From positions 1-35,808 of the forward strand of contig PFRX01000038.1 of assembly GCA_002788775.1 (NCBI GenBank): 35,808 bases of DNA. The letters are read 5' to 3'. Every line of letters starts with the position of its first letter. Within the stretch, counting starts at the first letter, position 1. Below are positions 435 to 23,178 of the stretch, in pieces. This DNA comes from Candidatus Peregrinibacteria bacterium CG_4_9_14_0_2_um_filter_53_11. Its GTDB lineage: Bacteria; Patescibacteriota; Gracilibacteria; UBA1369; UM-FILTER-53-11. The position numbers and the translations under genes were made by a program. Under the pieces are notes generated by a model. The model did no database searches, was not told the origin of the DNA, and saw nothing but the letters and a program-made list of their open reading frames with translations.

Positions 435-1736
435 TTACGGCCTCACCAAGATTGGGGCCGGAATCGGGGCGGCTACTCTGGATTCTATCGTCTCCACCAG
501 AGTGAAGGGCTGGAAGTCGTCGCGACTTCCGAGTACCTCGGGGTTGGGCTCGATCGTTAAGATCACGGTTACTCTAGGCTGTTGCTGGACCTCGGCCTCA
601 CCGAAGGCGTAGTAGGGATCTTCCAAAGGTGAGACTAAAAACTGCAGCCGGCTCACGTTCACACGAAGGGGGCTGATCGGCACAAAGTCTTTTACAAAAC
701 CATCTGCCGGCTTATCACACAGATCGTTGAAGTTGGCATCGGAGGGATACAGCTCTTCGGATGGGCGACGCGGCACCTCTCCGGGAAGATTATTCCCAAC
801 TGAGGGACAGTCGTTAACCGGCCCGGCCGGGGAGTTCACTCCGGCAACATCACCGGTGCCGCGGCAGTTAAATTCGGGGGCGCAAATAAAGCTCTCGATC
901 ACACCATCATTATCAACATCGCGTCCTTCCATCCTCAAAAGTGAGAGGGCATAGATGGGGCTAATTGCTATGCCGCCGATACGTTCGCGAGCCAGCATCG
1001 TCTTTTGGCGGGCATCACCTGAGATCAGGTAGAGCTCGGGGAGCAGTTTTATATCCGCCTGAGTTGGGGCGCGATCTCCACGGCAGGCCGCCAGATTACC
1101 AAACAGAGTAATACCGATATTTCTCAGGAAAGCGTTTCGCCTGTAGCTCACGGTTCCACAAAAAGCGTTTTCCTTATCCCCCACTCCCCCATTCGCGTCC
1201 TTTCCAATAAAGGGATTTTGACCGGTGTTGCGGTCGAGCGTTCGCCTCAACGGGACACAGTCATCGCGATTGCGCTCATCGTCTCGAGCCGCCTGACCAA
1301 CGGCGGGCGGGTTTGCTCCAACCGTATTACAGTCATAGCCGAGCGCCTCGTCATCACCGGGATTGAAAAACGATGAGTAGTAGCGACCGAAGTTCTGACC
1401 ATAGGTTTGCAGGTTACTCGCACCGGGAATGGCGACTCCCTTTCTGAGACTCGTTAAGACTACGTACTGATTGTAATACTCATCATAATCGATCGTCCCC
1501 GAGCGGATCTCATCGGCGATTCTGGCCATAATGAAGCGCGCATCTTCATAGAGCTGGTTCTGGATCGTCGCACGGCGAGACTCACGAAACGAGTCCACAT
1601 AGAGACCGGAGATAACCGTCATCACGATCGCAAAAACACCAATCGAGATCATCACCTCAACCAGCGTAAAGCCCCCCGCGCCGGAGCGTGAAGTAGAAAA
1701 ATGGCGGAGTGAGCTGAGTGCGAAACGCCTCATCAT
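435..1736 (-). CDS. PilW-like type IV prepilin / minor pseudopilin
   Basis: 433 aa. The N-terminus has a class III prepilin signal: a short basic leader, then GAGG|FTLVE near residues 19-27, with the expected Glu at mature position 5. A hydrophobic helix follows (to about residue 47). Prepilin peptidase would cleave after Gly22 and methylate Phe23. The rest is a large non-conserved pilin head with several cysteines, consistent with a PilW-like minor pilin of type IV pili or a T2SS-like pseudopilin. The ATG overlaps the TGA of pilC (ATGA), so the two are translationally coupled as the last gene of the pilus operon. At over 400 residues it is long for a prepilin. It ends with PAPILVRP and a TAA that abuts an RHS fragment. 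Class is well supported; the exact subfamily is not. Confidence 0.8.
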   Translation of the reverse strand: MMRRFALSSLRHFSTSRSGAGGFTLVEVMISIGVFAIVMTVISGLYVDSFRESRRATIQNQLYEDARFIMARIADEIRSGTIDYDEYYNQYVVLTSLRKGVAIPGASNLQTYGQNFGRYYSSFFNPGDDEALGYDCNTVGANPPAVGQAARDDERNRDDCVPLRRTLDRNTGQNPFIGKDANGGVGDKENAFCGTVSYRRNAFLRNIGITLFGNLAACRGDRAPTQADIKLLPELYLISGDARQKTMLARERIGGIAISPIYALSLLRMEGRDVDNDGVIESFICAPEFNCRGTGDVAGVNSPAGPVNDCPSVGNNLPGEVPRRPSEELYPSDANFNDLCDKPADGFVKDFVPISPLRVNVSRLQFLVSPLEDPYYAFGEAEVQQQPRVTVILTIEPNPEVLGSRDDFQPFTLVETIESRVAAPIPAPILVRP

Positions 1737-2974
1737 AACGCGATATCCGTTAGTTGCAGAATCGGTAACATAATAGCGGCCACGATCACCGCAACAATGG
1801 CTCCCAAGATGACGATGATGAGCGGTTCGAGAAGTTTTGAGAGACCGGCAACGGCCACGTCAATCTCCTCTTCGTAGTACTCCGCGATCTTCGCCGCGAT
1901 CGTGTCGAGCTGGGCGGTCTGCTCACCCACGGCGACCATCTGCACCATCATCGCAGGAAATTCCTGCGTGTCGCGAAGACTTTCACCAAGGGGAATACCA
2001 CGGGCGATATCTTCGGAAACGAGCTGAATCCGCCGACGATAGACCTCATTCCCCACAGTGTCCGCGTTGATCGTCAGGCTCTGCGTAATGGGAACTCCAC
2101 TTTTGAGGAGGTTGCTCAGTGCACGATTAAACCGTGCCAAAAGCGACTTCTTCACGATGGGGCCAAAGATCGGCAGACGAATCAAAATCCAGTCGGTCCA
2201 GTAGCGACCGGCGGGGAGACGTCGGATCATAAGAGAAAAACCGATAAGCACGGACAAGCCGATGAGCAGTGAGATCCAGTTCTCGACAAAAATATCGCTG
2301 AGGCCGATCACGAAGCTCGTAATCGCGGGGAGCTCCTTGTCTGCACCCTCAAAAATCTCTGCGATCTTCGGAACGACCGCGACCATCATTCCCACGACGA
2401 CGATGACCATCACAACACCAAGGAAGACCGGGTACATAAGTGCGCCCTTAACTTTTCGGCGAATTGTCGCATCTTTTTCCACCTCGACGGCAAGCTGTTT
2501 GAGTATCTGAGTGAGCTGGCCCGAGGCCTCGGCGGCACGGATCATTCCGATGTGGGCCTGCGAAAAAATATCGCTATACTGCGCGGCACTCTGAGAGAAG
2601 GTCGAACCTTTCTCGATAAAGCGTGCGATGTCGAAGAGTGAGTTTTTAAAACGCACATTCTGCGTCTGCTCCGAAACCGTGTCGAGAGCCTTAACAAGGG
2701 GCACACCGGCCTCGATCATAATCGACATGAGCCGGTAAAAAGTTGCCTTATCGCGCGTCTTCGGCTTCCCAAGCGACTGAAACCAGCCATCAAGTCGACT
2801 ATATAAATTCCCCCTTTTTTCCTGCCTGGGCTTGGGCATAGTCGCTAGGAGCTGGGGCGAGATCCCCCTTTCCTCAATCGAGAGCACGATCTTTTCTTCA
2901 GACTGTCCATCTTTAAGGTTGAAGGACTTTTCTCCCAGCTGGGAGTCTACCAAAAAATCTTGAGCTTTTTTCAT
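1733..2974 (-). CDS. pilC: Type IV pilus inner-membrane platform protein PilC (GspF family)
   Basis: 413 aa polytopic inner-membrane protein on which the PilB ATPase acts to drive pilin polymerisation. Two GspF/T2SSF domains are visible. The first has the phrase FYRLMSIMIEAGVPLVKAL near residue 85 and is followed by a membrane segment (VFLGVVMVIVVVGMMVAVV). The second starts near LARFNRALSNLLKSGVPITQSL and is followed by the C-terminal segment LIIVILGAIVAVIVAAIMLP. The first roughly 75 residues are a charged cytoplasmic extension without recognisable similarity. The gene sits 3 bases after pilB and overlaps the prepilin start by 4 bases, so it is inside one operon. It ends in TGA, which argues that UGA is a normal stop in this organism. 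Start ATG at 2974 is the only good candidate. Confidence 0.93.
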   Translation of the reverse strand: MKKAQDFLVDSQLGEKSFNLKDGQSEEKIVLSIEERGISPQLLATMPKPRQEKRGNLYSRLDGWFQSLGKPKTRDKATFYRLMSIMIEAGVPLVKALDTVSEQTQNVRFKNSLFDIARFIEKGSTFSQSAAQYSDIFSQAHIGMIRAAEASGQLTQILKQLAVEVEKDATIRRKVKGALMYPVFLGVVMVIVVVGMMVAVVPKIAEIFEGADKELPAITSFVIGLSDIFVENWISLLIGLSVLIGFSLMIRRLPAGRYWTDWILIRLPIFGPIVKKSLLARFNRALSNLLKSGVPITQSLTINADTVGNEVYRRRIQLVSEDIARGIPLGESLRDTQEFPAMMVQMVAVGEQTAQLDTIAAKIAEYYEEEIDVAVAGLSKLLEPLIIVILGAIVAVIVAAIMLPILQLTDIAL

Positions 2975-2977
2975 TGT

Positions 2978-4492
2978 TTAAAGTTGAGGTGGAGTCTCGA
3001 GCTGGAGCGCCGCGAGTTCGTTGGGGACCGCAGCGGGCAGACCCATTTCAGGAGTAACCGCCGGAGCAGGAACCTGGGGAGTCTCTAAAACCGGCGTCGT
3101 CACCGGAGCCGGTTCGGCAGGTTGAACTTCAGCCGCGGAAGCCTCTAAAGCTGGGGCCATCGCGGGAGTCTCGGGAGCTGGCGCTGCTGCCGCACCTTCC
3201 GGAGCCGAGACGGCCTCTTTTTTGGGCTCTGAATTCTCGTCCCACTCCACTTCGCGGGCTATGCTGTAGACCTCGTCCAGACTGGTCTCACCTTTGAGCG
3301 CCTTCAGAATTCCGGCCTGCTCAAGCGTGACCATTCCACTCTTCACCGCCTCCTGCTCGATATCGAGCGACTGCCCCTGCTCAAGAATAAGACGGCGGAG
3401 GTGGTTGTTCATCATCATAATTTCGTAAACTCCAAGACGTCCAAAGTAGCCGGTATTTCCACAGACCTCACACCCCTTTCCGATATAAAACTTTGGAGAG
3501 CGGAGGAGTTCGGGCTCGTAGTTTGCGGCCTCGGCGGGAGCCAGATACTCGAGACTTCGCTTCACACGAGCGAGAAGTTCGGGCGAGGTCTGGTCTTCCA
3601 CTCGGCAGTTTGTACAGATTTTCCTAACCAGGCGCTGCGCTATAATCAGGTTGATCGTCGAGGCCATAAGGTAGGCGGGAACGCCCATATTCGCGATACG
3701 AGTGAGCGTCTCGACGGCGCTGTTGGTATGAATTGTCGAGAAGACGAGGTGACCGGTCAGTGATGACTCGATCGCAACATCCATCGTCTCTCGGTCACGG
3801 ATCTCACCGACCATAATTATGTCGGGATCCTGACGAAGTGCGGTTCTTAGACCACTCGCGAAGGTGTAGCTGATGTCGGGATGAACCTGACTCTGATTGA
3901 GCCCGTTCATCTGGATCTCCACCGGATCCTCAATCGTCAGAATATTCACGTCGGGCGTGTTAAGAACACTCAGACACGAGTAGAGCGTCGTGGTCTTACC
4001 CGAACCGGTCGGACCGGTCGTCAGAATAATTCCATTGGGAAGATCCAGCGACTTTTTGATGTATGCCATGTTGAGCCCCTCGAGTCCGAGCTCCTCAAGC
4101 GTTGGAATTTTTCGCGACTTGTCCTGGATACGCATCACAACCTTCTCACCATTGACGGTCGGAAAAGACGAGACACGAAGATCCATCTCACGATTATCTT
4201 TCGTCGTCACCGTTGTGCGTCCGTCCTGGGGGATACGCTGCTCGTCGATCTTCAAGTTCGACATGATCTTGATACGTGAAACAACCGCCGGATGCATGTT
4301 GAGCGGATACTCAACCACACGACGCAAAACTCCATCGATGCGGTAGCGGATCTGAGTCGTCTCTCGCTTGGGCTCAATATGAATATCGGACGAGCGCATG
4401 TCGAGTGCCGCCGAGATCGTCGCAAGCACAATCTGGGGCACGTTGCCCGCCAGAATCGCTTCTTGCAGTTGTTGTAGTTTTATATTTTCCAT
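2978..4492 (-). CDS. pilB: Type IV pilus assembly ATPase PilB (GspE family), lacking the N-terminal MshEN domain
   Basis: 504 aa secretion ATPase that powers pilus extension. Motifs in order: an N2-type region (SSDIHIEPK, residues 34-42), Walker A GPTGSGKTT (160-168), Asp box LTIEDPVE (185-192), Walker B DPDIIMVGEIRD (222-233), His box TGHLVFSTIHTN (246-257), and a tetracysteine zinc site (C293, C296, C341, C344), which is typical of PilB/GspE rather than PilT. Family PilB proteins are usually about 570 aa with an N-terminal MshEN domain; here the core begins almost at residue 1. The C-terminal 80 residues instead form an Ala/Pro/Glu-rich disordered tail. It directly follows the PilO-like gene (the two coding regions abut) and precedes pilC by 3 bases. 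No pilT-like retraction ATPase is in the window. Confidence 0.93.
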   Translation of the reverse strand: MENIKLQQLQEAILAGNVPQIVLATISAALDMRSSDIHIEPKRETTQIRYRIDGVLRRVVEYPLNMHPAVVSRIKIMSNLKIDEQRIPQDGRTTVTTKDNREMDLRVSSFPTVNGEKVVMRIQDKSRKIPTLEELGLEGLNMAYIKKSLDLPNGIILTTGPTGSGKTTTLYSCLSVLNTPDVNILTIEDPVEIQMNGLNQSQVHPDISYTFASGLRTALRQDPDIIMVGEIRDRETMDVAIESSLTGHLVFSTIHTNSAVETLTRIANMGVPAYLMASTINLIIAQRLVRKICTNCRVEDQTSPELLARVKRSLEYLAPAEAANYEPELLRSPKFYIGKGCEVCGNTGYFGRLGVYEIMMMNNHLRRLILEQGQSLDIEQEAVKSGMVTLEQAGILKALKGETSLDEVYSIAREVEWDENSEPKKEAVSAPEGAAAAPAPETPAMAPALEASAAEVQPAEPAPVTTPVLETPQVPAPAVTPEMGLPAAVPNELAALQLETPPQL

Positions 4493-5113
4493 TTAGCGCT
4501 TAACTTTTGGGGTCTGGTAGTAGGAGACCATGTCGACGGTGAAGTTGATCACCTGCTGCTCCTCGTCGATCAGCTCTTCTCCATCGGGAAAGTTCAGCTG
4601 AATCGAACGGATCGCCATCAGACGCTGCTTGCTATTGAGATCACCCGAGTTGGTAATAAAGTCGAGGAAGGCGAAAAAGTTGGAGCGCGTTCCCTGAACA
4701 TTCATCGAGATCGGGAGTTCTGAGATCTGCGGATTTTCGGCAAGCGGCTGTCCCTTTCCAAAGCGAAGACTCGTCTGCAAAAGAGGATTCTTTGCGGAGT
4801 CGTGGGCGGCGAAAAAGTCGTCGAAGGTTCGGGTCAGATCAGTGTAGTTCTCATCGGGAGGAAGAATCGAGGCGATATTCCTGGCAAGCTGGAGCTGCTT
4901 GTCGGCCTGCTCTTCAGCAAAACCAACGAAGGCCTCCTTCTCTGACTGGTAGGCTCCACGAAGCTGAGTTATCGTCTTCTGGCTCTCCACGATCGCACTC
5001 TCCTGAGCATTCCACAGCTGATACTTGGTAACCCCGTAGAAGAGAGCGGCGGCGAGTACCAGTCCGCCAAAGATGTAGTAGAAGGTTGTTCGGCTAAGTG
5101 TGGGCGAGGTCAT
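4493..5113 (-). CDS. PilO-like type IV pilus alignment protein
   Basis: 206 aa with the PilO layout: a short cytoplasmic tail, one N-terminal membrane helix (residues about 11-28, FYYIFGGLVLAAALFYGV), a coiled-coil stretch with many Gln/Glu/Ala (about 35-80), and a C-terminal alpha/beta domain ending in a strand-rich segment (VINFTVDMVSYYQTP). PilO forms a periplasm-facing heterodimer with PilN that links the cytoplasmic ATPase complex to the outer machinery. Sequence similarity to named PilO proteins is weak by eye. The call rests on architecture and on position between a PilN-like gene (18-base gap) and pilB (directly abutting). No recognisable SD precedes the ATG at 5113. Confidence 0.65.
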   Translation of the reverse strand: MTSPTLSRTTFYYIFGGLVLAAALFYGVTKYQLWNAQESAIVESQKTITQLRGAYQSEKEAFVGFAEEQADKQLQLARNIASILPPDENYTDLTRTFDDFFAAHDSAKNPLLQTSLRFGKGQPLAENPQISELPISMNVQGTRSNFFAFLDFITNSGDLNSKQRLMAIRSIQLNFPDGEELIDEEQQVINFTVDMVSYYQTPKVKR

Positions 5114-5131
5114 GAGAGAGTTCGTAAAAGA

Positions 5132-6667
5132 TTAGTTTGCTGGTGGAAGATCGAGGGAGTCGCGTGGATCCGGCTCCTTTTGGAGAGTGAACTCCAGGTT
5201 CAGACCGGCGGAAAAATCTCCACTCTGGTCGCGCGATTTAGAGAATGAGCGGAAGTCGATGTCTTTAAACTGGGGCGACTTCTCGATACTGTCGATAAGT
5301 GTTGCGATGAAGCTGAAGGTCTTGCTGTCGGAGGTTCGAGTTAGACCGCTGAGTGAGATGCGTCCCGTTTTTGAGTCGAAGCGGTATGAGGAGAAGACGA
5401 AGCCGCCTATGGTCTTAAACAAGCCCTGGCCATAGTGGCGGTCGGCGACACGAACAACATCGTGAATCGAGGTGATGACCGACGACCAGTCGATACGCTG
5501 CTTCTTTATCTGTTCAATCGAGGAGAGCGCATCAGTTCCCTGAGCGCGGATCTCTTTAAGCAACTCGACGAGTTGCTCGTCCGTGAGGGCGTTGATGTCC
5601 TGACCGCGAATGAGAAAGCGAAACGTGCGGTTAGCCAGAAGGGAACGGACGGCATCAATACCTCGCACATCTTCGGACGACTGCTTCACGTCGCCGCCAA
5701 AGCTACTCTTCTGACGGTCGAGTTCCGCGAGAGCCAGAGCAGTGTACTGTGCCTCACGATCCTGAGGCAGCACCGGCTCGAGCGAGAAGGTATCGACTCC
5801 GAGCGGCTGATTAAAAATCTTCTGAACTGCCAAGAGGATCGTCTTAACTTCTTGGGCCTGCGTTCCCAGCTCATCCGCTGCTGCACGACGCGTCGACTCC
5901 ACCTGGCCGGCAAGCTGAGTGGTTCGGTGTGAGGCGATCAGCGGATCGATTCTAAGGTTGAGCTCGTCGAGCCAGAGACGTGCCTGACGGTAGCGCACGA
6001 GATTTATATCGGTCTGAATTTTCTGAGTCTCAACAGTCGTCTGGTCAAAACGAAGCGCGGTATTGGGACCGAGCTGTGAGTTGAGGAGGGTAAAGTCGGG
6101 ATCAAGTTGTGTGAAGAAGAAGCCGTAAACCAGGAGGCCGAGTGCAACCGATGTACCGAAAAACAACCGTGCATGTCGGTGTTTGCTGCGACGCTCAGTC
6201 TCTTCGGCGACCTTATCGAAAAGGGGTTTAGGGCCGAGAAGCTGAGAGATAGAAGCAGTGCCGTCGATCTTTTTTGGGGAGGATGGCTGCTCTCCACCGG
6301 ATGACGAGAAGAGCGTCGAAGAGGATGTGGCTGGCGCCGTTTTTTCTTTCGCGTCCAGAGCGGCCGGCAGGTCTCGTTTCAGCAAAACGGATAAGAGGCT
6401 GCGCTTGGGTTTTGCACTCTCTGCCGCTCCATCCAGGTGAAAAACCTCAGTGGGCTTGCCTTCTTCTGCAGGGGCGGCGGCCGGTTCGGAGCTTATCGTG
6501 GCGACAGGAGCCGCTGGGCTAACCTGGGCCTCGGGAGCCGGCAGAACCGTAGGCTCACCTTGGCTAACAGGAGCCGGCACAGCCGACTTCTCGGGCAGTG
6601 CAGCCGCCTGCTTATCAGCAGGCTGCTCGGGGTTTACCTCAACGGGTTGTTTCTGATCGTCCGCCAT
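5132..6667 (-). CDS. PilN-like bitopic pilus assembly protein with long disordered N-terminus
   Basis: 511 aa. Residues 1 to about 75 are Pro/Ala/Glu-rich and followed by a Ser-rich linker to about 155. A single membrane helix follows (about 167-187, RLFFGTSVALGLLVYGFFF), then a long extracytoplasmic helical region. The C-terminal roughly 85 residues have the PilN pattern: a strand ISLSGLTRTSD, a helix with LIDSIEKSPQFKDIDFRSF, and the terminal strand LNLEFTLQKE. In canonical systems PilN is about 180-200 aa and its short cytoplasmic peptide binds PilM; here that tail is about 165 residues and no pilM is in the window. It is the first gene of the pilus operon, and the upstream 117-base AT-rich gap is shared with the divergent Wzy-like gene. 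The assignment is an inference from order and the C-terminal pattern. Confidence 0.6.
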   Translation of the reverse strand: MADDQKQPVEVNPEQPADKQAAALPEKSAVPAPVSQGEPTVLPAPEAQVSPAAPVATISSEPAAAPAEEGKPTEVFHLDGAAESAKPKRSLLSVLLKRDLPAALDAKEKTAPATSSSTLFSSSGGEQPSSPKKIDGTASISQLLGPKPLFDKVAEETERRSKHRHARLFFGTSVALGLLVYGFFFTQLDPDFTLLNSQLGPNTALRFDQTTVETQKIQTDINLVRYRQARLWLDELNLRIDPLIASHRTTQLAGQVESTRRAAADELGTQAQEVKTILLAVQKIFNQPLGVDTFSLEPVLPQDREAQYTALALAELDRQKSSFGGDVKQSSEDVRGIDAVRSLLANRTFRFLIRGQDINALTDEQLVELLKEIRAQGTDALSSIEQIKKQRIDWSSVITSIHDVVRVADRHYGQGLFKTIGGFVFSSYRFDSKTGRISLSGLTRTSDSKTFSFIATLIDSIEKSPQFKDIDFRSFSKSRDQSGDFSAGLNLEFTLQKEPDPRDSLDLPPAN

Positions 6668-8745: not shown

Positions 8746-9246
8746 CTATTTGGAGAAGTATGCCTTTATCCTAGCACCGTCGCTTGAAGAGTTTACCCTA
8801 GCACCGTCGCTTGAAGAGTTGGGAGAATTTGAGGCGGCTGGGTACTCATTCATACAGGTTGCGTACTGAACCTGGGTGATTGTTCCATAGCGGATCTTTG
8901 CCGAGAGGGTACCTGCAGTGACATAGCGTCGAATATCCCGGCACAGCGCCTCGCTCACCTCAACCGGAGCAGGCGCGACGTAGAAGAGGTCTGGGTACTC
9001 ATTCAGACACGCTGAGTACTGGGCCCGGGTGATCGTTCCGGCTGCAATCTTCGCTGAGACGATACCTGCATCGACGTAGAGTCGAACATCACGGCAGAGC
9101 TCTTCGCTGAGGGGTGCCTGATCCTCGTGTGAGACATTACGGAATGCTCCCTTAAAGGTACCTGCGGCACCGAAAACTCCAACAGACAAGACGACGGCAA
9201 CGAGGCCGAAGGCGAGCCATCCTTTATTAGCTTTAGTAAGCTTCAT
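8746..9246 (-). CDS. Secreted or membrane-anchored protein with two 40-residue Cys repeats
   Basis: 166 aa, no family recognised. An N-terminal membrane or signal segment (residues 10-29, WLAFGLVAVVLSVGVFGAAG) is followed by two tandem copies of a module of about 40 residues at 47-86 and 98-137. Each has the pattern SEx-LCRDxRxYVxAG, then SAKI, then GTITxxQY and CxNEYP. The two cysteines in each copy are 28 residues apart (C51-C80 and C102-C131), which suggests one disulfide per module. The C-terminus carries a recent 9-residue duplication, NSSSDGAR twice, encoded by a perfect 24-base direct repeat. It has its own promoter and converges on the Wzy-like gene with an 8-base gap. Export is inferred from the N-terminal segment and paired cysteines; the function is unknown. 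Confidence 0.78.
   Translation of the reverse strand: MKLTKANKGWLAFGLVAVVLSVGVFGAAGTFKGAFRNVSHEDQAPLSEELCRDVRLYVDAGIVSAKIAAGTITRAQYSACLNEYPDLFYVAPAPVEVSEALCRDIRRYVTAGTLSAKIRYGTITQVQYATCMNEYPAASNSPNSSSDGARVNSSSDGARIKAYFSK
8770..8820. repeat. Tandem 24-base perfect direct repeat inside the Cys-repeat protein gene
   Basis: The 24-base unit at 8770-8793 recurs exactly at 8797-8820, with a period of 27 bases (9 codons). It encodes the doubled SSSDGAR motif at the C-terminus of the 8746-9246 gene. Exact identity at the DNA level points to a recent slippage duplication. Confidence 0.9.
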
Positions 9247-10369: not shown

Positions 10370-11074
10370 TTAGGCGGCTGCCTCGTCTGCGGACTTTTCT
10401 TCTGCTGCGGGGGCCTCAGTCTCTGGAGCTGGCATCTCGGCTGTGGCCATCTCAGGTGCGGGAGCTGACGCATCTGCTGCCGGCATCTCGGCCTCAGCTA
10501 CTGCGGGAGCCTCTTCCGGGATGGGGGCCGGAGCGCCTCCGAGCTCACCTGATCCTTTCTTCTTGGCGACCTCACTGAGTGCGCAAACAAAGCTGCGCAT
10601 AACTCCGTGAAGAACTCCATGGAATCCTGAGATAGGTGACATCATAAGTCCGACCAGCTGAGTAAGAAGAACCTGGCGGCCTGGGAGCTGTGCGATTTGT
10701 TGTGCCATAGCGGCATTCAGACATTTTCCTTCGAAAATGGCACCGATAATCTTGAGTGTCTCAACGTCTTTTCCAAGATCGTGAAGGGTTTTTGCTCCGA
10801 TAACCTCATCATTCTTTGCGAATGCGAGACCAACGGCTCCCTCCAAAACCGAAGGATCGAGATCTCCGAATCCGGCCTCCTTGGCCGCAAGCTTTACGAG
10901 GGTCTTTCGAGCAACTTTGAACTCAACCTCGTTCTCACGAAGTTTGCTGCGAAGATTTTCCATCGCCTTAACACTCGTTCCCTGATACTGACTAAAGACA
11001 ACTGACTTGGCTGCTTTAAAGTCTTCGATCAGCTCTGCGAGCTGTTCCTGTTTTTTCGCTTTTGTTACGGCCAT
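10370..11074 (-). CDS. rplJ: 50S ribosomal protein L10 with Ala/Glu-rich C-terminal extension
   Basis: 234 aa from ATG 11074 (MAVTKAKKQEQ). Family features: the KSVVFSQYQGTSVKAMENLR segment and FKVARKTLVKLAAKEAGF in the RNA-binding domain, then the helix that holds L12 dimers (about residues 145-165). Most L10 proteins end near 165-180. This one adds about 55 residues made almost only of Ala, Glu, Pro, Met and Ser, so it is an acidic disordered tail. The frame stays open upstream to 11194, but that stretch is the structured L10 leader RNA, so 11074 is the start. L10 anchors the L12 stalk on 23S rRNA and represses its own operon by binding the leader. The rplK and rplA genes are not adjacent. 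Confidence 0.95.
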   Translation of the reverse strand: MAVTKAKKQEQLAELIEDFKAAKSVVFSQYQGTSVKAMENLRSKLRENEVEFKVARKTLVKLAAKEAGFGDLDPSVLEGAVGLAFAKNDEVIGAKTLHDLGKDVETLKIIGAIFEGKCLNAAMAQQIAQLPGRQVLLTQLVGLMMSPISGFHGVLHGVMRSFVCALSEVAKKKGSGELGGAPAPIPEEAPAVAEAEMPAADASAPAPEMATAEMPAPETEAPAAEEKSADEAAA

Positions 11075-11229
11075 AGGTTCGAAGGGTGAAGATAAAAAAA
11101 CTCGACGGGGAGAGACGTCGAGTACACCATGCACAGCCGCAGGGCCGTACGAATCATAAGTGATTTGGTGTCTCGGTAGGTCTTCCATTCCCACCGAGGT
11201 GGAAACTGCCTACTGTCTCTGACGGGCGA
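11075..11229 (-). ncRNA. Ribosomal protein L10 leader RNA (autoregulatory)
   Basis: The transcript from the rplJ promoter has a leader of about 150 bases. Its core is a long hairpin at 11213-11176: GTAGG pairs with CCTAC at the base, with an inner stem TTTCCACC/GGTGGGAA. This agrees with the known L10 leader fold, which binds the L10-L12 complex. It is followed by a terminator hairpin just before the coding region, so excess L10-L12 would probably act by attenuation. Confidence 0.8.
11094..11122 (-). terminator. Attenuator terminator within the L10 leader
   Basis: Perfect 7-bp stem CTCGACG/CGTCGAG (11122-11116 and 11107-11101) with an 8-base loop. It is followed in the minus reading by TTTTTTT (11100-11094). 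It lies 20 bases before the rplJ ATG. Confidence 0.85.
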
Positions 11230-11259
11230 AGTCTAGCTCAAGGGTGCGGGAAGAGTCAA
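11230..11259 (-). promoter_or_regulatory. Promoter of the rplJ-rplL operon
   Basis: Minus-strand TTGACT (11259-11254), 18-base spacer, TAGACT (11235-11230). The -35 box overlaps the TGA stop of the upstream CX10C gene. Transcription would start near 11223, giving the L10 leader. Confidence 0.6.
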
Positions 11260-11831
11260 TAAAAAAAAGCGGCTGGACTGCCTTCGTTGCTTGCGCGAGC
11301 TCGGCCCTGCCTGATCATGCGCAAAGGAAGACGGTCATGGCGAGGCTCAGGTGTGAGCTTCCGAGGAGGATCGATGCACTCCATCGCGAGGGCACGCGCC
11401 TCACTGCCGCAAAGTTCACGTATAAAACGGGCCGCGTCGTCTTCTCCCGGCAGGGAGCTACAGATATTCTCAAGGGGTCGTGCGCGGTCGATACAGTCGT
11501 CGATAGCCGCGTCCGGGTCGGCTGAAGATGCCCTCAAAGGGCCCTCCACTCCCCCGAGACACCTGACGAAGTTTGCGCTAGCGCTCGTCAGACAGTAATC
11601 TCGCCCCTGAGGAGCGCGTATATCACAGAAATTCACCTGAGTATCAAGACGCTTAAAGCAGGCGAAATAGGCATCACTAGCAGTCTGAGCCTGAACCGCG
11701 TCGGGAGTAGGCTGCTCTCCAAGCTGAGCGAGTTGTTTGCCATGAGCGGTCGGGGAGGCAAGGCTGGCGGCCGTCGCCACAGCGAGGACGAGGGGCGCTA
11801 GAGGTGATAATCGTGTGTGTTCCTTCTCCAT
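11256..11831 (-). CDS. Secreted protein with regular CX10C cysteine motifs
   Basis: 191 aa, no family recognised. A signal-peptide-like N-terminus is visible: basic start, hydrophobic LAPLVLAVATAASLA, then a likely cleavage near SPTAHG. The mature part has eight cysteines at 58, 69, 80, 91, 113, 124, 141 and 152. Five successive intervals are exactly CX10C (58-69, 69-80, 80-91, 113-124, 141-152). Such spacing is typical of disulfide-stapled helical hairpins in general (compare twin CX9C proteins), but I do not recognise this variant. The C-terminal 35 residues are basic and Arg/Pro-rich. AGGA lies 4 bases before ATG 11831, one of the few SD-like sites here. It is transcribed divergently from the HD-domain gene, and its stop overlaps the rplJ promoter. 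Confidence 0.75.
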   Translation of the reverse strand: MEKEHTRLSPLAPLVLAVATAASLASPTAHGKQLAQLGEQPTPDAVQAQTASDAYFACFKRLDTQVNFCDIRAPQGRDYCLTSASANFVRCLGGVEGPLRASSADPDAAIDDCIDRARPLENICSSLPGEDDAARFIRELCGSEARALAMECIDPPRKLTPEPRHDRLPLRMIRQGRARASNEGSPAAFFY

Positions 11832-11874
11832 CTGATCCTAAAGAAAAAGCGAAATAAGACTTAAGGGGCCATGA

Positions 11875-11903
11875 TAGACAAAAACCTCAATTTAGGCTAG
11901 TAA
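11875..11903 (+). promoter_or_regulatory. Promoter of the HD-domain gene, probably leaderless
   Basis: TAGACA (11875-11880), 17-base spacer, TAGTAA (11898-11903). Only 8 bases separate the -10 box from ATG 11912, so the mRNA would start at or next to the start codon. Confidence 0.45.
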
Positions 11904-11911
11904 ATAGTTAT

Positions 11912-12469
11912 ATGATGAGTTTCGAGGAGGCTCTCTCACTCCTGAGAGAACATGTAAAAACCGAGAATATTATTAAGCACCTTTTCGCGACCCAGGTTTT
12001 AATGCAGGCACTGGCGCGGAAGTTTGGCGAAGACGAGCACCGCTGGGGGCTGGCCGGCCTCCTTCACGATCTGGACTGGGACTACACGAAGCCGACGCCC
12101 GACAGGCACGGACTGATGTCTTTTGAAATGCTGGCCGACAAAGACCTCGACCCGGAGATCTGCTCTGCGATTAAGCTCCACAACTACATGCTCGACATCG
12201 AGCCTCAGACCCTTATGGAAAAGGCACTCTACTGCAGCGAGATGATGACGGGATTTATCGTAGCCGTCGCCCTGGTGAAGCCGAGCAAGAAGCTCGACGA
12301 CGTGAAGGTCGAGTCGGTTCTGAAAAAATTCAAAGAAAAGAGCTTTGCCTCCGGTGCCAGACGCGAAATTATGGAGCGATGCGAGCCCTACCTGGGGATA
12401 ACACTCGAGGAGCTCGTGACGATCTGCCTCGCCGAGATGAAGAAGATCAGTGGCAAACTCGGACTCTAA
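11912..12469 (+). CDS. HD-domain (HDIG-type) phosphohydrolase
   Basis: 185 aa small HD protein. Metal-binding motif: H23, then H52-D53 in GLLHDLDWDY, then H90. The family phrase ALYxxDxxTGFIxAxAL is present, but the position usually held by Asp is Glu110 (ALYCSEMMTGFIVAVAL). The downstream PSKKLDDVKVESV and KSFASGARRE segments match this subfamily closely. Such proteins are presumed metal-dependent phosphohydrolases acting on nucleotides or phosphoesters; the substrate is not known. The Asp-to-Glu change could keep metal binding or weaken it. Two ATG codons start the frame (11912 and 11915). The gene precedes miaA by 33 bases, but the two may be separately transcribed. Confidence 0.85.
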   Translation: MMSFEEALSLLREHVKTENIIKHLFATQVLMQALARKFGEDEHRWGLAGLLHDLDWDYTKPTPDRHGLMSFEMLADKDLDPEICSAIKLHNYMLDIEPQTLMEKALYCSEMMTGFIVAVALVKPSKKLDDVKVESVLKKFKEKSFASGARREIMERCEPYLGITLEELVTICLAEMKKISGKLGL

Positions 12470-12502: not shown

Positions 12503-13426
12503 ATGAACGTACCAGACATCCGTGCACAGATCAGCTCCTTTTTAAAAGAGACGAGCGACCCGCGTCCGCCCTTACTCGTACTACTGGGCCCAACCGCCTC
12601 GGGCAAGACGGCACTCTCAGTCCCACTGGCTCAGGAGTTCGGTGCGGAGGTTATCTCGGCCGACAGCCGTCAGGTCTACAGAAAAATGGATGTGGGAACG
12701 GATAAGATCATGCCGAAGGAGCAGGCGGGCGTTCCTCACCACCTTTTGGACGTTGCCGAGCCCGATGAGCGCTTCACTCTTTTTGAGTACAAGCGGGCGG
12801 CCGAGAAAGCTACCAAGGAGATCACTGAGCGCGGTCGACTCCCCTTTTTGGTGGGCGGAACCGGGCTCTACATCAAGGCGCTGACCGAGAACTTCGACCT
12901 GCCACCGGAAGATGCGAAGCTCCGCGAGGAGCTGATGGCGGAGCTGGAGGAGGTTGGGAACGAGGCCCTCCACGACCGCCTCCGCTCGGTTGACCCGGAG
13001 AGTGCCGAGCTCATTCACCGAAACAACGTCCCCTACCTTATTCGGGCTCTCGAAATCGTCAAACTCACCGGGAAACCCAAGAGTGAGCTCAAAAAGCCCT
13101 CCCCCTATCGCCTCCTGAAAATCGGCATAACACGGCCGCGCGAAGAGCTCTACCGACGCATTAACGAACGTGTAGACCGGCAGATCGAGGAGGGTGGACT
13201 CGTCCGGGAGACGCAGGAGCTTCTCGATGCCGGCTACGGGGTCGACCTGCCCTCGATGCAGTCGCTTGGCTATAAAGAAATTGCCGACCACCTCATCGGG
13301 CCGCTCACACTCCTTGAGGCGCGTGAGCTCCTCAAGCAAAATACCCGCCACTTTGCAAAACGGCAGCTCACTTGGTGGCGACGTGCGAGCGAGAGTGACG
13401 TTCAGTGGTTTGACCGGTTCGACTAA
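12503..13426 (+). CDS. miaA: tRNA dimethylallyltransferase MiaA
   Basis: 307 aa, the usual length. It adds dimethylallyl to N6 of A37 in tRNAs that read UNN codons. Visible motifs: P-loop GPTASGKT (29-36), the catalytic region ISADSRQVYRKMDVGTDK (51-68), VPHHLLDV (77-84), LVGGTGLYIKAL (116-127), and the C-terminal SLGYKEI and FAKRQLTWWRR segments of the tRNA-binding part. A TATAAA sits only 2 bases upstream of ATG 12503, too close for a standard -10 of this start, so expression probably depends on the HD gene upstream. Its last 4 bases overlap the 3' end of the convergent pentapeptide-repeat gene. Confidence 0.96.
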   Translation: MNVPDIRAQISSFLKETSDPRPPLLVLLGPTASGKTALSVPLAQEFGAEVISADSRQVYRKMDVGTDKIMPKEQAGVPHHLLDVAEPDERFTLFEYKRAAEKATKEITERGRLPFLVGGTGLYIKALTENFDLPPEDAKLREELMAELEEVGNEALHDRLRSVDPESAELIHRNNVPYLIRALEIVKLTGKPKSELKKPSPYRLLKIGITRPREELYRRINERVDRQIEEGGLVRETQELLDAGYGVDLPSMQSLGYKEIADHLIGPLTLLEARELLKQNTRHFAKRQLTWWRRASESDVQWFDRFD

Positions 13427-14127
13427 GCCGTCCTGAGCGCATCCTGCCACGTCGCCCAGAGAGACCTCATCACAGCCTCTGCCATGGGCGGATCCAGCTT
13501 AACTTGATGCAAAACAGCGTGCGTTAGCTGAGCGGGCTCCAGCCCCTGGACTCCGCGCAAGTCGGCCTCGGCAAAGTTCATCGTACCGCTCAGACGAACA
13601 CCCTCAAAACGAGCTCCGCTCAGGTCGGAAAGCGAGAAGGTACAGTTAAAGAAGTTGGTATTTGCAAAGTGCGCTCCACGCAGATCAGCCGAAGCGGCAC
13701 TGAGATTATTGATCGCACATCCCTCAAAGTGGGCGCCATCGAGCCGTGCTGCAAATAGGTTAACTCCCTCGAACGTCACATAGTGAAACTTCGCTCCTCT
13801 AAGATTTGCATTGCACAGATCGAGACGGTTGAATGTTCGTCGCTCAAACGTTGGCGTCCAGTCAGGATTCTCACACCGCAACTCGTTAAATGCCGAAATT
13901 CCACAGGCAGTCAGCAACGAAGCCGCGCGACTATTCAATGCCTGTTCCGAAATAGCGCTACGATGCTCGTCAAGTGAAACAACCTCTGATCCACCACGAA
14001 GTATCGAGAGGGCCTCTCCATCCAGGTGAGGGTGCTGAGCAACGGGGGTCCTAAGGCCTGTACCTGGGCCAGAATTCACATCTCTTGTAGGTGCCGAGCC
14101 GACATCAAGATTGCGAGCTATTCTCAT
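13423..14127 (-). CDS. Pentapeptide-repeat protein
   Basis: 234 aa from ATG 14127. The N-terminal roughly 90 residues are not recognised. From about residue 100 on there are successive A(D/N)LXX pentapeptides (LCNANLRGAKF, VNLFAARLDGAHF, ASADLRGAHFANTNF, LSDLSGARFEGV, FAEADLRG), which predict a right-handed quadrilateral beta-helix. A short helical C-terminus follows (MAEAVMRSLWATWQDALRTA). No signal peptide is seen. Family members include gyrase-protecting DNA mimics, but most have no known role and none is assigned here. The longer frame to 14166 begins at a TTG that is the -35 box of its own promoter, so ATG 14127 is preferred. It converges on miaA with a 4-base overlap. Confidence 0.85.
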   Translation of the reverse strand: MRIARNLDVGSAPTRDVNSGPGTGLRTPVAQHPHLDGEALSILRGGSEVVSLDEHRSAISEQALNSRAASLLTACGISAFNELRCENPDWTPTFERRTFNRLDLCNANLRGAKFHYVTFEGVNLFAARLDGAHFEGCAINNLSAASADLRGAHFANTNFFNCTFSLSDLSGARFEGVRLSGTMNFAEADLRGVQGLEPAQLTHAVLHQVKLDPPMAEAVMRSLWATWQDALRTA

Positions 14128-14138
14128 GATTAAGGACA

Positions 14139-14166
14139 ATGATACTACTATGAGTTCCTCTGTCAA
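14139..14166 (-). promoter_or_regulatory. Strong promoter of the pentapeptide-repeat gene, near-leaderless
   Basis: Minus-strand perfect TTGACA (14166-14161), 16-base spacer, TATCAT (14144-14139). The -10 box ends 11 bases before ATG 14127, leaving a leader of only a few bases. Confidence 0.7.
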
Positions 14167-14215: not shown

Positions 14216-15883
14216 ATGTCGGTACTGGGGAAAAAATGGTGTGTAAAAAATAAGGAAAGTGAGCTCCCGCTTCTCGAAAGACTACTGAGAAACCGCGGCC
14301 TCACTGAGGTGGGCGAGGTAACACGCTTTCTCAATCCCAATCGTGAAAAAGACTTCCACGATCCCTTTTTGATGGACGATATGACCAAGGCCGTCGAGCG
14401 CATCACCAAGGCGATCGAGCAGAAGGAGCGCATTATGATTTTTGGTGACTATGACGTTGACGGAATCACGGGAAGTGCAATTCTCTTCAGGGCACTGCGC
14501 ACGCTGGGAGCTCAGGTTTCATGCCGTCTCCCCCATCGTATTGAAGATGGCTACGGTCTGCGCAACAAGTTCATAGAAGAGTTTAAGGAGTTGGGCGTCG
14601 GGCTTATTATAACGGTCGACAATGGGATCTCATGTGCCGACCAGGTTGATTTCGCGCTTTCCCATGGCATCGAGACGATCATCAGCGACCACCACACCGT
14701 CCCCGAGCGACTTCCCAATGCGGTGGCGATCCTGCACCCGAAGCTCCCTAAGGCCAGCTACCCCTGCACAGAGCTCACCGGTGCGGGCGTTGCACTTAAG
14801 CTGGCTCAGGCACTCTTGTCGGCCCTCGCTCCCGAAAGCGAGCTGATCAACGACCTTTTTGACCTGGCGGCTATGGGAACGATCGCAGATATGGGAGAGC
14901 TCCGCGGCGAGAACCGCCTTATTGTTAAAGAAGGACTTCAGCGCATGCAGCATACGCGCTGGCCCGGACTCTCACGGCTCAAAAAATATGCGGGTGTTTC
15001 GGGAGTCGTAAACACCGAGGATATCGGCTTCATGATCTGCCCTCGAATCAATGCGGCCGGACGCATCGCCGACCCCATGCACGCTTTCAGACTACTCATT
15101 CACGATGGCCAGCAGAGCGATCGCCTGGCCTACAACCTGGATCAGCTCAACCAACAGCGCCAGACACTTATGCAGCAGCTCTTTATTCTTGCCGATGTGC
15201 AGGCTGCCACTCAGACGGCGCTCCCCGCCACAGTGATCTGGGATAAAGAGTTCCATGGCGGAATTATCGGACTGATCGCAGCACGACTCTGTGATAAGTA
15301 CCAGAAACCTGCGATCGTTATGGAGCAGCGAAAGGATATTCTCATCGGCTCATGTCGCTCGGTGGCCGGCGTAAATATCGTTGAGGCACTCGCCGCAGTT
15401 AAGCATACGCTGACCGCCTTTGGTGGGCACAGTGCGGCAGCCGGCTTTGAGGTCTCAAAGAAAAATCTGAATGATTTTGTTGCGGCACTCAGCAAGGTTC
15501 TCCGAAAAACGGTACGCAAGGCGCCGACCGAGTTTATTTTGGATATAGACTGCGAGCTCTCACACGCCGAGGTTGCCGATAAGACCGTCGAGGCGATCAA
15601 AACTCTTCAGCCCTTTGGCGTGGGCAACTCCGCCCCCCTCTTCCTCTGCAGAAATATTACGATTATAGATCCGTCGACAGTGGGAAAAGAAAAAAAACAC
15701 CTCAAGTTTAAATCAACTATAAATGGACTGGAGGTTGATGTAATCGGCTTTAAGTTCGGAGAGTTCTATAAAGAGCTCAGGCAAGGCATGACGATGGATG
15801 TCGTGGGCCAGCTCGAGCACAATATCTGGCGAGGACGAAAAAGGCTTCAACTCAAGCTGACTGATTTCGCACTGAGAAATTAG
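14216..15883 (+). CDS. recJ: Single-stranded-DNA-specific 5'-3' exonuclease RecJ
   Basis: 555 aa, normal for RecJ. It degrades single-stranded DNA 5' to 3' in recombination and mismatch or base-excision repair. DHH-domain motifs: DYDVDG (78-83), TVDNG (133-137), SDHH (157-160), and AAMGTIADM followed later by CPRINAAGRI. The DHHA1 domain has the GGHSAAAGF motif, and an OB-fold segment forms the C-terminus. All expected metal ligands are present. It is transcribed divergently from the pentapeptide gene. A 24-bp dyad ends at its ATG, so regulation at this site is likely. The first ATG is kept because MSVLGKKW fits the RecJ N-terminus. Confidence 0.96.
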   Translation: MSVLGKKWCVKNKESELPLLERLLRNRGLTEVGEVTRFLNPNREKDFHDPFLMDDMTKAVERITKAIEQKERIMIFGDYDVDGITGSAILFRALRTLGAQVSCRLPHRIEDGYGLRNKFIEEFKELGVGLIITVDNGISCADQVDFALSHGIETIISDHHTVPERLPNAVAILHPKLPKASYPCTELTGAGVALKLAQALLSALAPESELINDLFDLAAMGTIADMGELRGENRLIVKEGLQRMQHTRWPGLSRLKKYAGVSGVVNTEDIGFMICPRINAAGRIADPMHAFRLLIHDGQQSDRLAYNLDQLNQQRQTLMQQLFILADVQAATQTALPATVIWDKEFHGGIIGLIAARLCDKYQKPAIVMEQRKDILIGSCRSVAGVNIVEALAAVKHTLTAFGGHSAAAGFEVSKKNLNDFVAALSKVLRKTVRKAPTEFILDIDCELSHAEVADKTVEAIKTLQPFGVGNSAPLFLCRNITIIDPSTVGKEKKHLKFKSTINGLEVDVIGFKFGEFYKELRQGMTMDVVGQLEHNIWRGRKRLQLKLTDFALRN

Positions 15884-17353: not shown

Positions 17354-19102
17354 ATGCACCTGACACAAACACAACTAGATGTTATCGCTCTCCTGAAGAA
17401 GTCGGAGAACCTCTTAATCCTCCCCTCTTCACCGATCGATGGCGATAGTCTTGGTTCGGCCCTCTCCCTCTACATGCTTCTTAAGAAGATGGGGAAGAAG
17501 GTTACCGTCGTTGCCGAAGAAGAGGTGCCCGAGAGCTACGCCTTCCTTCCACAAATTAAGACCGTTTCAAATGAGCTGCACTTCCTGCGCGACTTCATCG
17601 TAACGATCGACTGCCGTGCGGCTAACATCTCCCCCGAACACATTCGCCACGAGATTCAGGGCGACAAGGTTAACATTATCGTGAAGCCCGGCAACAGTCC
17701 GATCCACAAAGAGCACGTTAGTTTTTCCGAGGGCCCACCTCCTTTTGACTGCATAGTCATGGTAGACGCCGGCTCTCCTGAGCAGTTCGGGAAGATTTAT
17801 GATGAGTCGACCGAGCTTTTCCACCTGGCTCCCGTTATTAATATCGACCACCACGCAAGCAACACGGGCTTCGGCAAGATCAACCTTGTCGATATCATGG
17901 CCCCCTCAACAACGACGATGATCCTCCCTCTTCTTGAAGAGCTCGGCAAGGAGCTTATTGACGAGGATATTGCGACCCTTCTGCTCGCCGGGCTTATTAC
18001 CGACACGGGCAGCTTCCAGAATGCGAACACAACCCCCGACGCCTTCTCACTCGCCGCTAAGATGATCGGCTACGGCGCACGCCAACAGGAGATCATTCAA
18101 CACATCTACAAGACCAAGAAGCTGACAACCCTCCGACTCTGGGGACGCACGCTCAGCAAGATTCAGTATGACGAGGCCCACAAGATGGTCTGGTCGAGCC
18201 TGAGTAAGTCTGACTTTGATGAGATTGGCGGAACGTCAGATGAGACCGAGGGCGTTATCGACGAGCTGATGAGCAATGCTCCCGGCGCGGAGATCGTCTT
18301 CTTACTCAAGGAACGTGCCGACGGTGAGATTGGCGGAAGCATCCGCACCCTTACCCCGACAATCGACGCAAGCAAGCTCGCCGGACTCTTTGGGGGCGGT
18401 GGCCACCTTCAGGCGGCCGGCTTCCGTGTAAAAGACAAAAGCTTCGAAGAAGTTGAGTCGATGGTTATTGAGAAGATCCGCGAGTTCCAGGCAAAGCGCC
18501 TGCGCCTCATGCCCGAGGCGGGAGCTCAGGAGCCCGCTCAAGAGCCAGTACACGAAGCTGCCCAGGAGCCCGAGCCGGCGCAGCACAAGCCCATGCCAAT
18601 GCCAATAGGCATGCCCGAACCCGAGGCACATGGGCTTCCCACACCGCCACCTCCTCCAGTTGAGGCCGAAGCGCCAAAACCAGCCCCAATGACAGCCCCG
18701 GCTCCCAGCCCTTCACCCGCAACCCCAGCTCCCGAGCATCCCGCTCCCGCAGCTCCGATGATGCCTAAACCAATGGGGGCTCCACAACCACCGATGACTC
18801 CCATGGCTCCTATGCCCGCACCGGTCGCGCCGCCTCTTCCTCCGCTCCCTCCGCGAGACCCCTCTCTTCCTCAGCCGCCACCAACTCCTCCTCACGAAGC
18901 ACCGATGATACCTCTTCACGAGGCTCCAGTGATGCCCCCACTCCATCCCCTGACTCCTCCTCCCGAGCCAAAGACCTTCGTCGGGCCCGATACCAGCGCA
19001 GCCGAAGCCGAAAAAGCTCCAGCTCAGCCGGCGCCTCCAACACTACCGGCTCCTCCCTTCCCTCCCATGCCTCCGGCGGCTCCGACAAATCCGCTCCTCT
19101 AG
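17354..19102 (+). CDS. DHH/DHHA1 phosphoesterase (NrnA-like) with a ~195-residue Pro-rich tail
   Basis: 582 aa. Residues 1-380 are an NrnA-type DHH phosphoesterase (nanoRNase / phosphoadenosine-phosphate phosphatase family). Metal motifs are present: PIDGDSLGS (27-35), MVDAG (136-140), NIDHHASN (163-170), ITDTGSF (215-221), and DHHA1 GGGGHLQAAGF (347-357). The first motif usually has a His two to four residues before the Asp, and this is Ser here (PSSPIDGD). After residue 385 the chain becomes about 195 residues of Pro, Ala, Glu and Met repeats, low-complexity and surely disordered. Typical NrnA proteins end near 320-330. The join is in frame and codon use is continuous, so the tail looks real. 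Role in degrading short RNA or pAp or c-di-nucleotide products is inferred from the family. Confidence 0.88.
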   Translation: MHLTQTQLDVIALLKKSENLLILPSSPIDGDSLGSALSLYMLLKKMGKKVTVVAEEEVPESYAFLPQIKTVSNELHFLRDFIVTIDCRAANISPEHIRHEIQGDKVNIIVKPGNSPIHKEHVSFSEGPPPFDCIVMVDAGSPEQFGKIYDESTELFHLAPVINIDHHASNTGFGKINLVDIMAPSTTTMILPLLEELGKELIDEDIATLLLAGLITDTGSFQNANTTPDAFSLAAKMIGYGARQQEIIQHIYKTKKLTTLRLWGRTLSKIQYDEAHKMVWSSLSKSDFDEIGGTSDETEGVIDELMSNAPGAEIVFLLKERADGEIGGSIRTLTPTIDASKLAGLFGGGGHLQAAGFRVKDKSFEEVESMVIEKIREFQAKRLRLMPEAGAQEPAQEPVHEAAQEPEPAQHKPMPMPIGMPEPEAHGLPTPPPPPVEAEAPKPAPMTAPAPSPSPATPAPEHPAPAAPMMPKPMGAPQPPMTPMAPMPAPVAPPLPPLPPRDPSLPQPPPTPPHEAPMIPLHEAPVMPPLHPLTPPPEPKTFVGPDTSAAEAEKAPAQPAPPTLPAPPFPPMPPAAPTNPLL

Positions 19103-22209: not shown

Positions 22210-23178
22210 CTAGTTCTCATCGCCATCAAAGTTCAAGACGCCCGTAAGTGGATTTCCCCAGGCATCCGTCTCGCTTCCTGCAAAATACTCGGTCCTTGTA
22301 GCAGCCGCAATCTGAATACTAAGCTGTTCCATTGCACCCTGAATCGGATCAAACTCGGGATCTATAGTGTCCGATGTCTTGTTAGGTGCCGCAGGAAGGA
22401 CCGACTCGGGGAGGCAGAAGGGGCGCGCACCTGATAACCAGTAGCCGTAGATTGAGAGGGGGTCCGGATTGGCCGACTCGTCCGCCGACTCCACTGAAAA
22501 AGTGGGCGCATGGGTTGCCCGATCAAGCGGTTCCCAGCCTTTCTTGAGTTCCGAAGAGGGAAAAGGTCGCGCTCCGGCAGGCCGAATACGTCTGTGGAAA
22601 GCGAGTTCCCCATCTCCCTGTGTAAAAAGACGCACCATCTGGCCCCAGTCTCCGGACTCCATTGCCTGCCTCAGCTGGATAGGTGGGGCAACTTGGTTCA
22701 GGAAGCTCAGCACTTCTTTTATCACGGGCGCAACTAGATACTCTGCGGATCTTCCGCCAAAAGCCCGCGCATGATTGCGTCCGGTTACGATGGCCTCGGC
22801 ACAATAATAATCGATAGTAGGAACAACCAGGCCCCTTAGGAAGACCACCACCTCGCGGATTAGCTGGGCGGGTGAGACCCCCTGAGCGAGATATACCTTG
22901 AGCTCGTCCTGCCAGTTATCGGGAAGGAGCCTCAACTCATCAAGAGTCGCATAACGATCGGCAATATCCAAAACACACTGCGCCAAGTGATTATCATAGT
23001 GATAGAGTAGACAGCTGCCGAGTGGAGTCCGTTGAAGGCCAGGGATATGAGTTCCTACCGCATTATCATACTGCGTCTTGAGCTGATTGAGTATAGCTCT
23101 GTCTTCAGGCGAGATAAGCATTAGGACGTCCTGGAACCAGTCCGGAATAGTGGTGCGTGAACCATTTTCATGTGACAT
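22210..23178 (-). CDS. Cytoplasmic protein of unknown function
   Basis: 322 aa, not recognised. There is no signal peptide or convincing membrane helix. The N-terminal two thirds look mainly helical ([62 protein letters not shown]). The last 110 residues are Pro/Ser/Asp-rich and less ordered, ending in a short acidic segment (NFDGDEN). No catalytic motif stands out. It has its own near-consensus promoter and is separated from uvrA downstream by about 100 bases and from the PrsW gene upstream by 114 bases, so it is probably a single-gene unit. Start ATG 23178 is fixed by the promoter position. Confidence 0.72.

Follow-up and report, generated by a model that had tools for sequence, protein, structure and literature searches.

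The open reading frame at 11256 to 11831 on the minus strand of the window (the whole 35,808-nucleotide stretch of DNA that was analyzed) was read directly and encodes a protein of 191 amino acids, here called P0001. In our best verdict, P0001 is a lineage-specific, exported, disulfide-stabilized helical protein with a presumed role at the cell surface. The more specific reading that we favor, with a probability of about 0.45, is that this orphan protein is exported and folds into two helical hairpins, each of them doubly stapled.

Cysteine layout and coding status of P0001

Translation of the frame (11256..11831, minus strand) gave a signal-peptide-like N terminus, a linker, a core with eight cysteines and a basic tail. 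Residues 1–29 (11745..11831, minus strand; MEKEHTRLSPLAPLVLAVATAASLASPTA) form a putative Sec signal peptide. By eye, residues 11–25 are hydrophobic and small residues follow at 23–29, and a low-confidence model placed a helix at 12–20. Judged in this way, P0001 looks exported, in agreement with the original prediction of a signal peptide. The tail, residues 154–191 (11259..11372, minus strand), is rich in arginine and free of cysteine, with seven Arg and one Lys against four acidic residues, and its mean pLDDT was below 50.

The cysteines are located at residues 58, 69, 80, 91, 113, 124, 141 and 152 (eight, or 4.2% of the protein), an even number with regular spacing. Re-reading of the translation returned the same positions and the same five intervals of exactly 11 residues as had been reported earlier, the full series being 11, 11, 11, 22, 11, 17 and 11. 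The probability of at least five equal consecutive intervals among eight cysteines was 5 × 10−6 with the end cysteines fixed and 1 × 10−5 (about 1 in 100,000) with the cysteines placed randomly in the mature part. Both values are post hoc; by a rough estimate, the probability is perhaps about 10−3 once all genes and noticeable patterns are counted. Among 328 open reading frames of at least 100 amino acids with at least six cysteines (at most 7% Cys) in the DNA compared, one other has five equal intervals out of seven, and it came from a locus picked by a cysteine-spacing pattern. No DNA tandem repeat was found under the spacing of P0001. The four-cysteine spacing, searched as DNA, occurred six times in the genome against five times for the reversed-pattern control, and on translation P0001 alone among the six loci was a regular protein that starts with ATG and has several of these intervals.

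We consider P0001 very probably a real gene. An AGGA is located a few bases 5′ of its ATG, and its frame scored best of the six. The synonymous codon score was neutral (0.013 ± 0.047), lower than that of nearly all recognizable genes of the window and within the range of spurious frames. Together with the lack of a homolog in any collection searched, this score favors the reading that P0001 is a frame left open by accident between rplJ and an HD-domain gene, its regular cysteines having also arisen by chance. We regard this as quite unlikely, given the best-of-six frame, the signal-peptide-like start, the cysteine regularity of about 10−5 and a chance of about 5 × 10−4, by our own estimate, of a run of 191 codons without a stop at this GC content. 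Moreover, a 322-amino-acid orphan beside uvrA (22210–23178, minus strand), with no Pfam match, is just as neutral in codon score (−0.02). Neutral codon usage thus does not decide whether P0001 codes.

Helix geometry and the proposed pairing of the cysteines

An alpha helix has 3.6 residues per turn, and 11 residues make almost exactly three turns. Both cysteines of a CX10C doublet would therefore lie on one helix face, where they could meet a partner doublet. Two cysteines 11 residues apart on one helix are about 16 Å from each other and cannot bond, so the staples must join different doublets. The original prediction of a chain of stapled helices is partly supported: the signs of export and the regular, even-numbered cysteines agree with it, but five CX10C units in a chain are not supported, as one of the intervals of 11 is a loop that connects two doublets. 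We prefer to read the layout as four doublets, separated by loops of 10, 21 and 16 residues, that is, CX10C-X10-CX10C followed by CX10C-X16-CX10C. Putative hairpin A (residues 52–92; 11556..11678, minus strand) contains C58-X10-C69-X10-C80-X10-C91, and low-confidence model helices fall at 43–65 and 84–92. Putative hairpin B (residues 106–153; 11373..11516, minus strand) contains C113-X10-C124-X16-C141-X10-C152, with low-confidence model helices at 106–116, 118–124 and 130–153 (pLDDT about 61–72). MAFFT did not bring the cysteines of hairpin A into register with those of hairpin B, and internal duplication of P0001 is unsupported.

A search for a thiol oxidase in the same genome, suggested earlier as a check, was successful. 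One locus encodes VKOR with an extra C-terminal part that, by analogy with known fusions, appears to be thioredoxin-like (L200, 1135–1914, partly masked as N, E = 2.6 × 10−27), and another encodes an exported DsbA-like protein with a CPFC motif and an N-terminal hydrophobic anchor (L201, 1414–2190, E = 3.4 × 10−33). Disulfides outside the cell are plausible in this genome, and these oxidases are not specific to P0001. In the proposed mechanism, the signal peptide would send P0001 out through Sec, and its eight cysteines would be oxidized by the DsbA-like protein, which the VKOR-thioredoxin fusion would recharge. Two antiparallel helical hairpins would then form, with disulfides closing both ends of each one; by analogy with COA6, the pairs would be C58-C91, C69-C80, C113-C152 and C124-C141. 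The product, a domain both small and rigid, would lie outside the membrane, where the basic tail could hold it to the anionic cell surface, and its use would probably be in surface contact.

Several features of the sequence speak for the two hairpins. A small or aliphatic residue is present at i + 4 in all four doublets (L62, A84, A117 and A145), and an aliphatic or aromatic residue at i + 7 or i + 8, again in all four (V66, F88, L120 and L148); this second position is i + 8 in both helices of hairpin A and i + 7 in both helices of hairpin B. These residues would continue the cysteine stripe along each predicted helix. Other exported proteins with repeated cysteine pairs are also present in the order. 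AlphaFold without an alignment gave low confidence, with a pLDDT of 51.6 when the whole protein was modeled and 53.9 when the core was; both low-confidence models were all-helical, with helices near 51–65, 84–92, 106–124 and 130–153, at or near the CX10C segments. Other results count against the two hairpins. The third CX10C contains Pro119, at which the modeled helix is interrupted. In hydrophobic moment the helices were only weakly above shuffled sequences (p = 0.10, 0.11, 0.04 and 0.51), and the non-cysteine hydrophobic face of the fourth helix is some 80–100 degrees off the cysteine stripe. The lack of a homolog and the pLDDT of 52–54 also count against them, as does the fold search with the low-confidence model against the PDB, in which nothing was significant (best E = 3.9).

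If P0001 is exported and disulfide-bonded, neighboring doublets could instead be paired (e.g., 69–80, 91–113 and 124–141) in a chain or small solenoid, in which the regular intervals of 11 would reflect repeated helices. The first two doublets and the gap of 22 are all multiples of 11, which suits such an arrangement, as does the low confidence of the models. However, the spacing is exact within doublets and irregular between them (10, 21 and 16), as expected of paired helices, and apart from the cysteines and scattered small or aliphatic positions the four doublets have no sequence in common; we therefore think this pairing unlikely. It is less probable still, in our view, that the cysteines are reduced and bind Cu(I) or Zn in a four-helix bundle like that of copper storage proteins, whose many inward cysteines include close pairs. 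The core of a bundle could be lined by cysteines that share a helix face, and copper storage proteins did appear in the fold search at E values of 5.9–9.3, which are meaningless alone. P0001, however, has eight cysteines only, with no CXXC or CXXXC pairs or other close pairs, no Pfam match and no significant fold match, and it is apparently exported into an oxidizing space.

Relatives and comparison with known cysteine-hairpin proteins

No credible homolog of P0001 was found in 99 relatives, in 89 genomes of the order or in 353 genomes of the class. Peptide patterns searched in GTDB genome contigs, and searches of plasmids, phages and viral contigs, likewise gave none, and there was no match in Pfam, NCBIfam or PHROGs and no significant one among the PDB sequences. 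The original prediction named the absence of homologs with the same cysteine spacing as evidence against it; the collections searched have as yet yielded no homolog at all, which counts against it. The best match of the class search (L202, E = 0.003) was rejected, as it is antisense to a longer open frame and lacks the cysteine layout; we take that longer frame, by eye, to be a DUF368-like membrane protein. The weak matches in L002–L004 (E about 0.03) are either short or interrupted by stop codons. A seven-cysteine DNA pattern occurred in at least 118 stretches of the GTDB genome contigs; among the matches listed, these were repetitive or low-complexity sequences, alternative frames or long unrelated cysteine-rich proteins, and none was like P0001. 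A four-cysteine pattern searched family-wide returned nothing comparable among the matches listed.

A close likeness is to the CHCH or twin CX9C proteins, especially COA6 and COX6B (CX9C-CX10C), which have two CXnC doublets with a loop between them, as in hairpin A. CHCH proteins reside in the mitochondrial intermembrane space and are imported by Mia40, whereas P0001 is a bacterial protein that a signal peptide apparently sends out of the cell, and it would carry two hairpins in one chain. COA6 has cysteines at 58, 68, 79 and 90 (CX9C-X10-CX10C), paired 58–90 and 68–79 (PMC6743065); hairpin A is CX10C-X10-CX10C, so COA6 is one residue shorter in helix 1. Yeast Mic19 also carries a CX10C (PMC6362269). 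Members of the CHCH family have two CX9C motifs, with CX9C-CX10C tolerated, whereas all four doublets of P0001 are CX10C. Neither the whole protein nor either hairpin matched any Pfam family, CHCH and COX6B included, and no match to PDB sequences, those of solved members included, was significant. As both the spacing and the profile tests fail, P0001 is not a member of the CHCH family, although it would work like CHCH hairpins if the fold is right. That P0001 is an independently arisen, exported bacterial counterpart of the CHCH hairpin, with two CX10C/CX10C hairpins and VKOR/DsbA in place of Mia40, is an idea we hold only tentatively and with some doubt.

Plant alpha-hairpinins also consist of a helix-loop-helix held by two disulfides, with the motif C-X3-C-X4-20-C-X3-C (PMC11591084). 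They differ as short single-hairpin plant peptides with CX3C, which P0001 does not contain. A secreted helical-hairpin protein that acts against other cells in the manner of these peptides would be small, exported and orphan in sequence with a cysteine-stapled hairpin layout, as P0001 appears to be, and alpha-hairpinins sometimes keep the cysteines alone (PMC11591084). We consider such a function most improbable for P0001, which has CX10C rather than CX3C, is 191 amino acids long and has no adjoining immunity-like or dedicated export gene.

Candidatus Peribacter has a high cysteine content and exported cysteine-rich proteins, together with one disulfide-forming protein, and a role in attachment was proposed (PMC4736985). 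P0001 resembles these proteins as an apparently exported cysteine-rich protein of a small-genome, probably candidate-phylum bacterium. The Peribacter proteins are large and have signal peptides, with a mean of 1,655 amino acids and 7.2% Cys (PMC4736985), against 191 amino acids and 4.2% Cys in P0001, which does not belong to that class.

Genome setting and a family of exported or anchored cysteine-pair repeat proteins

The host genome assembly has 49 contigs, a size of 1.2 Mb and 99% completeness. Judging by this size, its composition and its relatives, the host is probably a candidate-phylum (CPR) bacterium, possibly close to Peribacteria. P0001 precedes rplJ-rplL, which share its strand, and is divergent from the HD-domain gene; beyond the latter come miaA and a recJ-like gene. 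A promoter-like site, TTGACT-18-TAGACT (11230..11259, minus strand), overlaps the stop codon of P0001 and is possibly the rplJ promoter, although one found against 0.4 expected by shuffling is a weak excess. With a promoter there, rplJL need not be co-transcribed with P0001. Immediately before the rplJ start is a strong terminator-like hairpin (11123–11100); these two elements make it probable that rplJL is served by a separate promoter and leader. The region at 11074–11259 (minus strand) is a probable rplJ (L10) leader, with AGACAGTAGGC and GAGACA-type motifs that resemble those before rplJ in relatives, and no Rfam match was found, the leader region included.

The segment at 11074–11912 and its equivalents in relatives (L023, L024 and L025) form a variable slot before rplJ that holds unrelated small genes, some of them exported. 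In the same family, G002 has a 196-amino-acid exported protein and G003 a 149-amino-acid non-exported protein between rplJ and miaA, and G004 has a 232-amino-acid, apparently exported protein before rplJ. None of the three resembles P0001. Synteny traced from the HD-domain gene in relatives was not conserved.

Elsewhere in the window, a type IV pilus cluster (435–6667, minus strand) encodes PilC/GspF, PilB/GspE, PilO- and PilN-like proteins and a pilin-like protein with eight cysteines. A pentapeptide-repeat protein (13423–14166, minus strand) slightly overlaps the end of miaA on the opposite strand. Two DHH-DHHA1 (RecJ-type) proteins are encoded close together at 14216–15883 and 17354–19102 (plus strand), and the RecJ OB domain is present in the former only.

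Near P0001, the gene at 8746–9246 (minus strand) encodes a protein, either anchored or exported, that contains two copies of a repeat, each carrying one cysteine pair (C51-C80 and C102-C131). The repeat is 40–47 residues long, with one CX24-32C pair and the signature C..YK.....G.LT..............C...YP..W. Profile searches detected three copies each in G003 (L206) and G074 (L205), five cysteine pairs in G019 (L204) and six in G058 (L207); G064 (L218), G004 and G032 probably contain more members. The family thus ranges from two to at least six copies, was clearly matched in five or more of the order's genomes, and had no Pfam match above the cut-off. It is an uncatalogued family and a more solid find than the fold of P0001. 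Like P0001, its member in this genome is exported or anchored and has regular cysteine pairs, probably forming hairpins; it differs in having one pair per repeat and the YK...GxLT...YPxxW signature, and the two share no sequence similarity. As this family has homologs, unlike P0001, it is a better handle on the exported cysteine-hairpin proteins of the lineage.

Should the fold proposed for P0001 be wrong, the gene would be one more orphan exported gene. If it is right, the double-stapled helical hairpin, best known from mitochondrial proteins, would have had a separate origin in a bacterium that maintains its own disulfide machinery in a genome of 1.2 Mb, as a compact scaffold with strict three-turn (11-residue) spacing. 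The exported cysteine-pair repeat family, found across the order, is open to alignment tests now.
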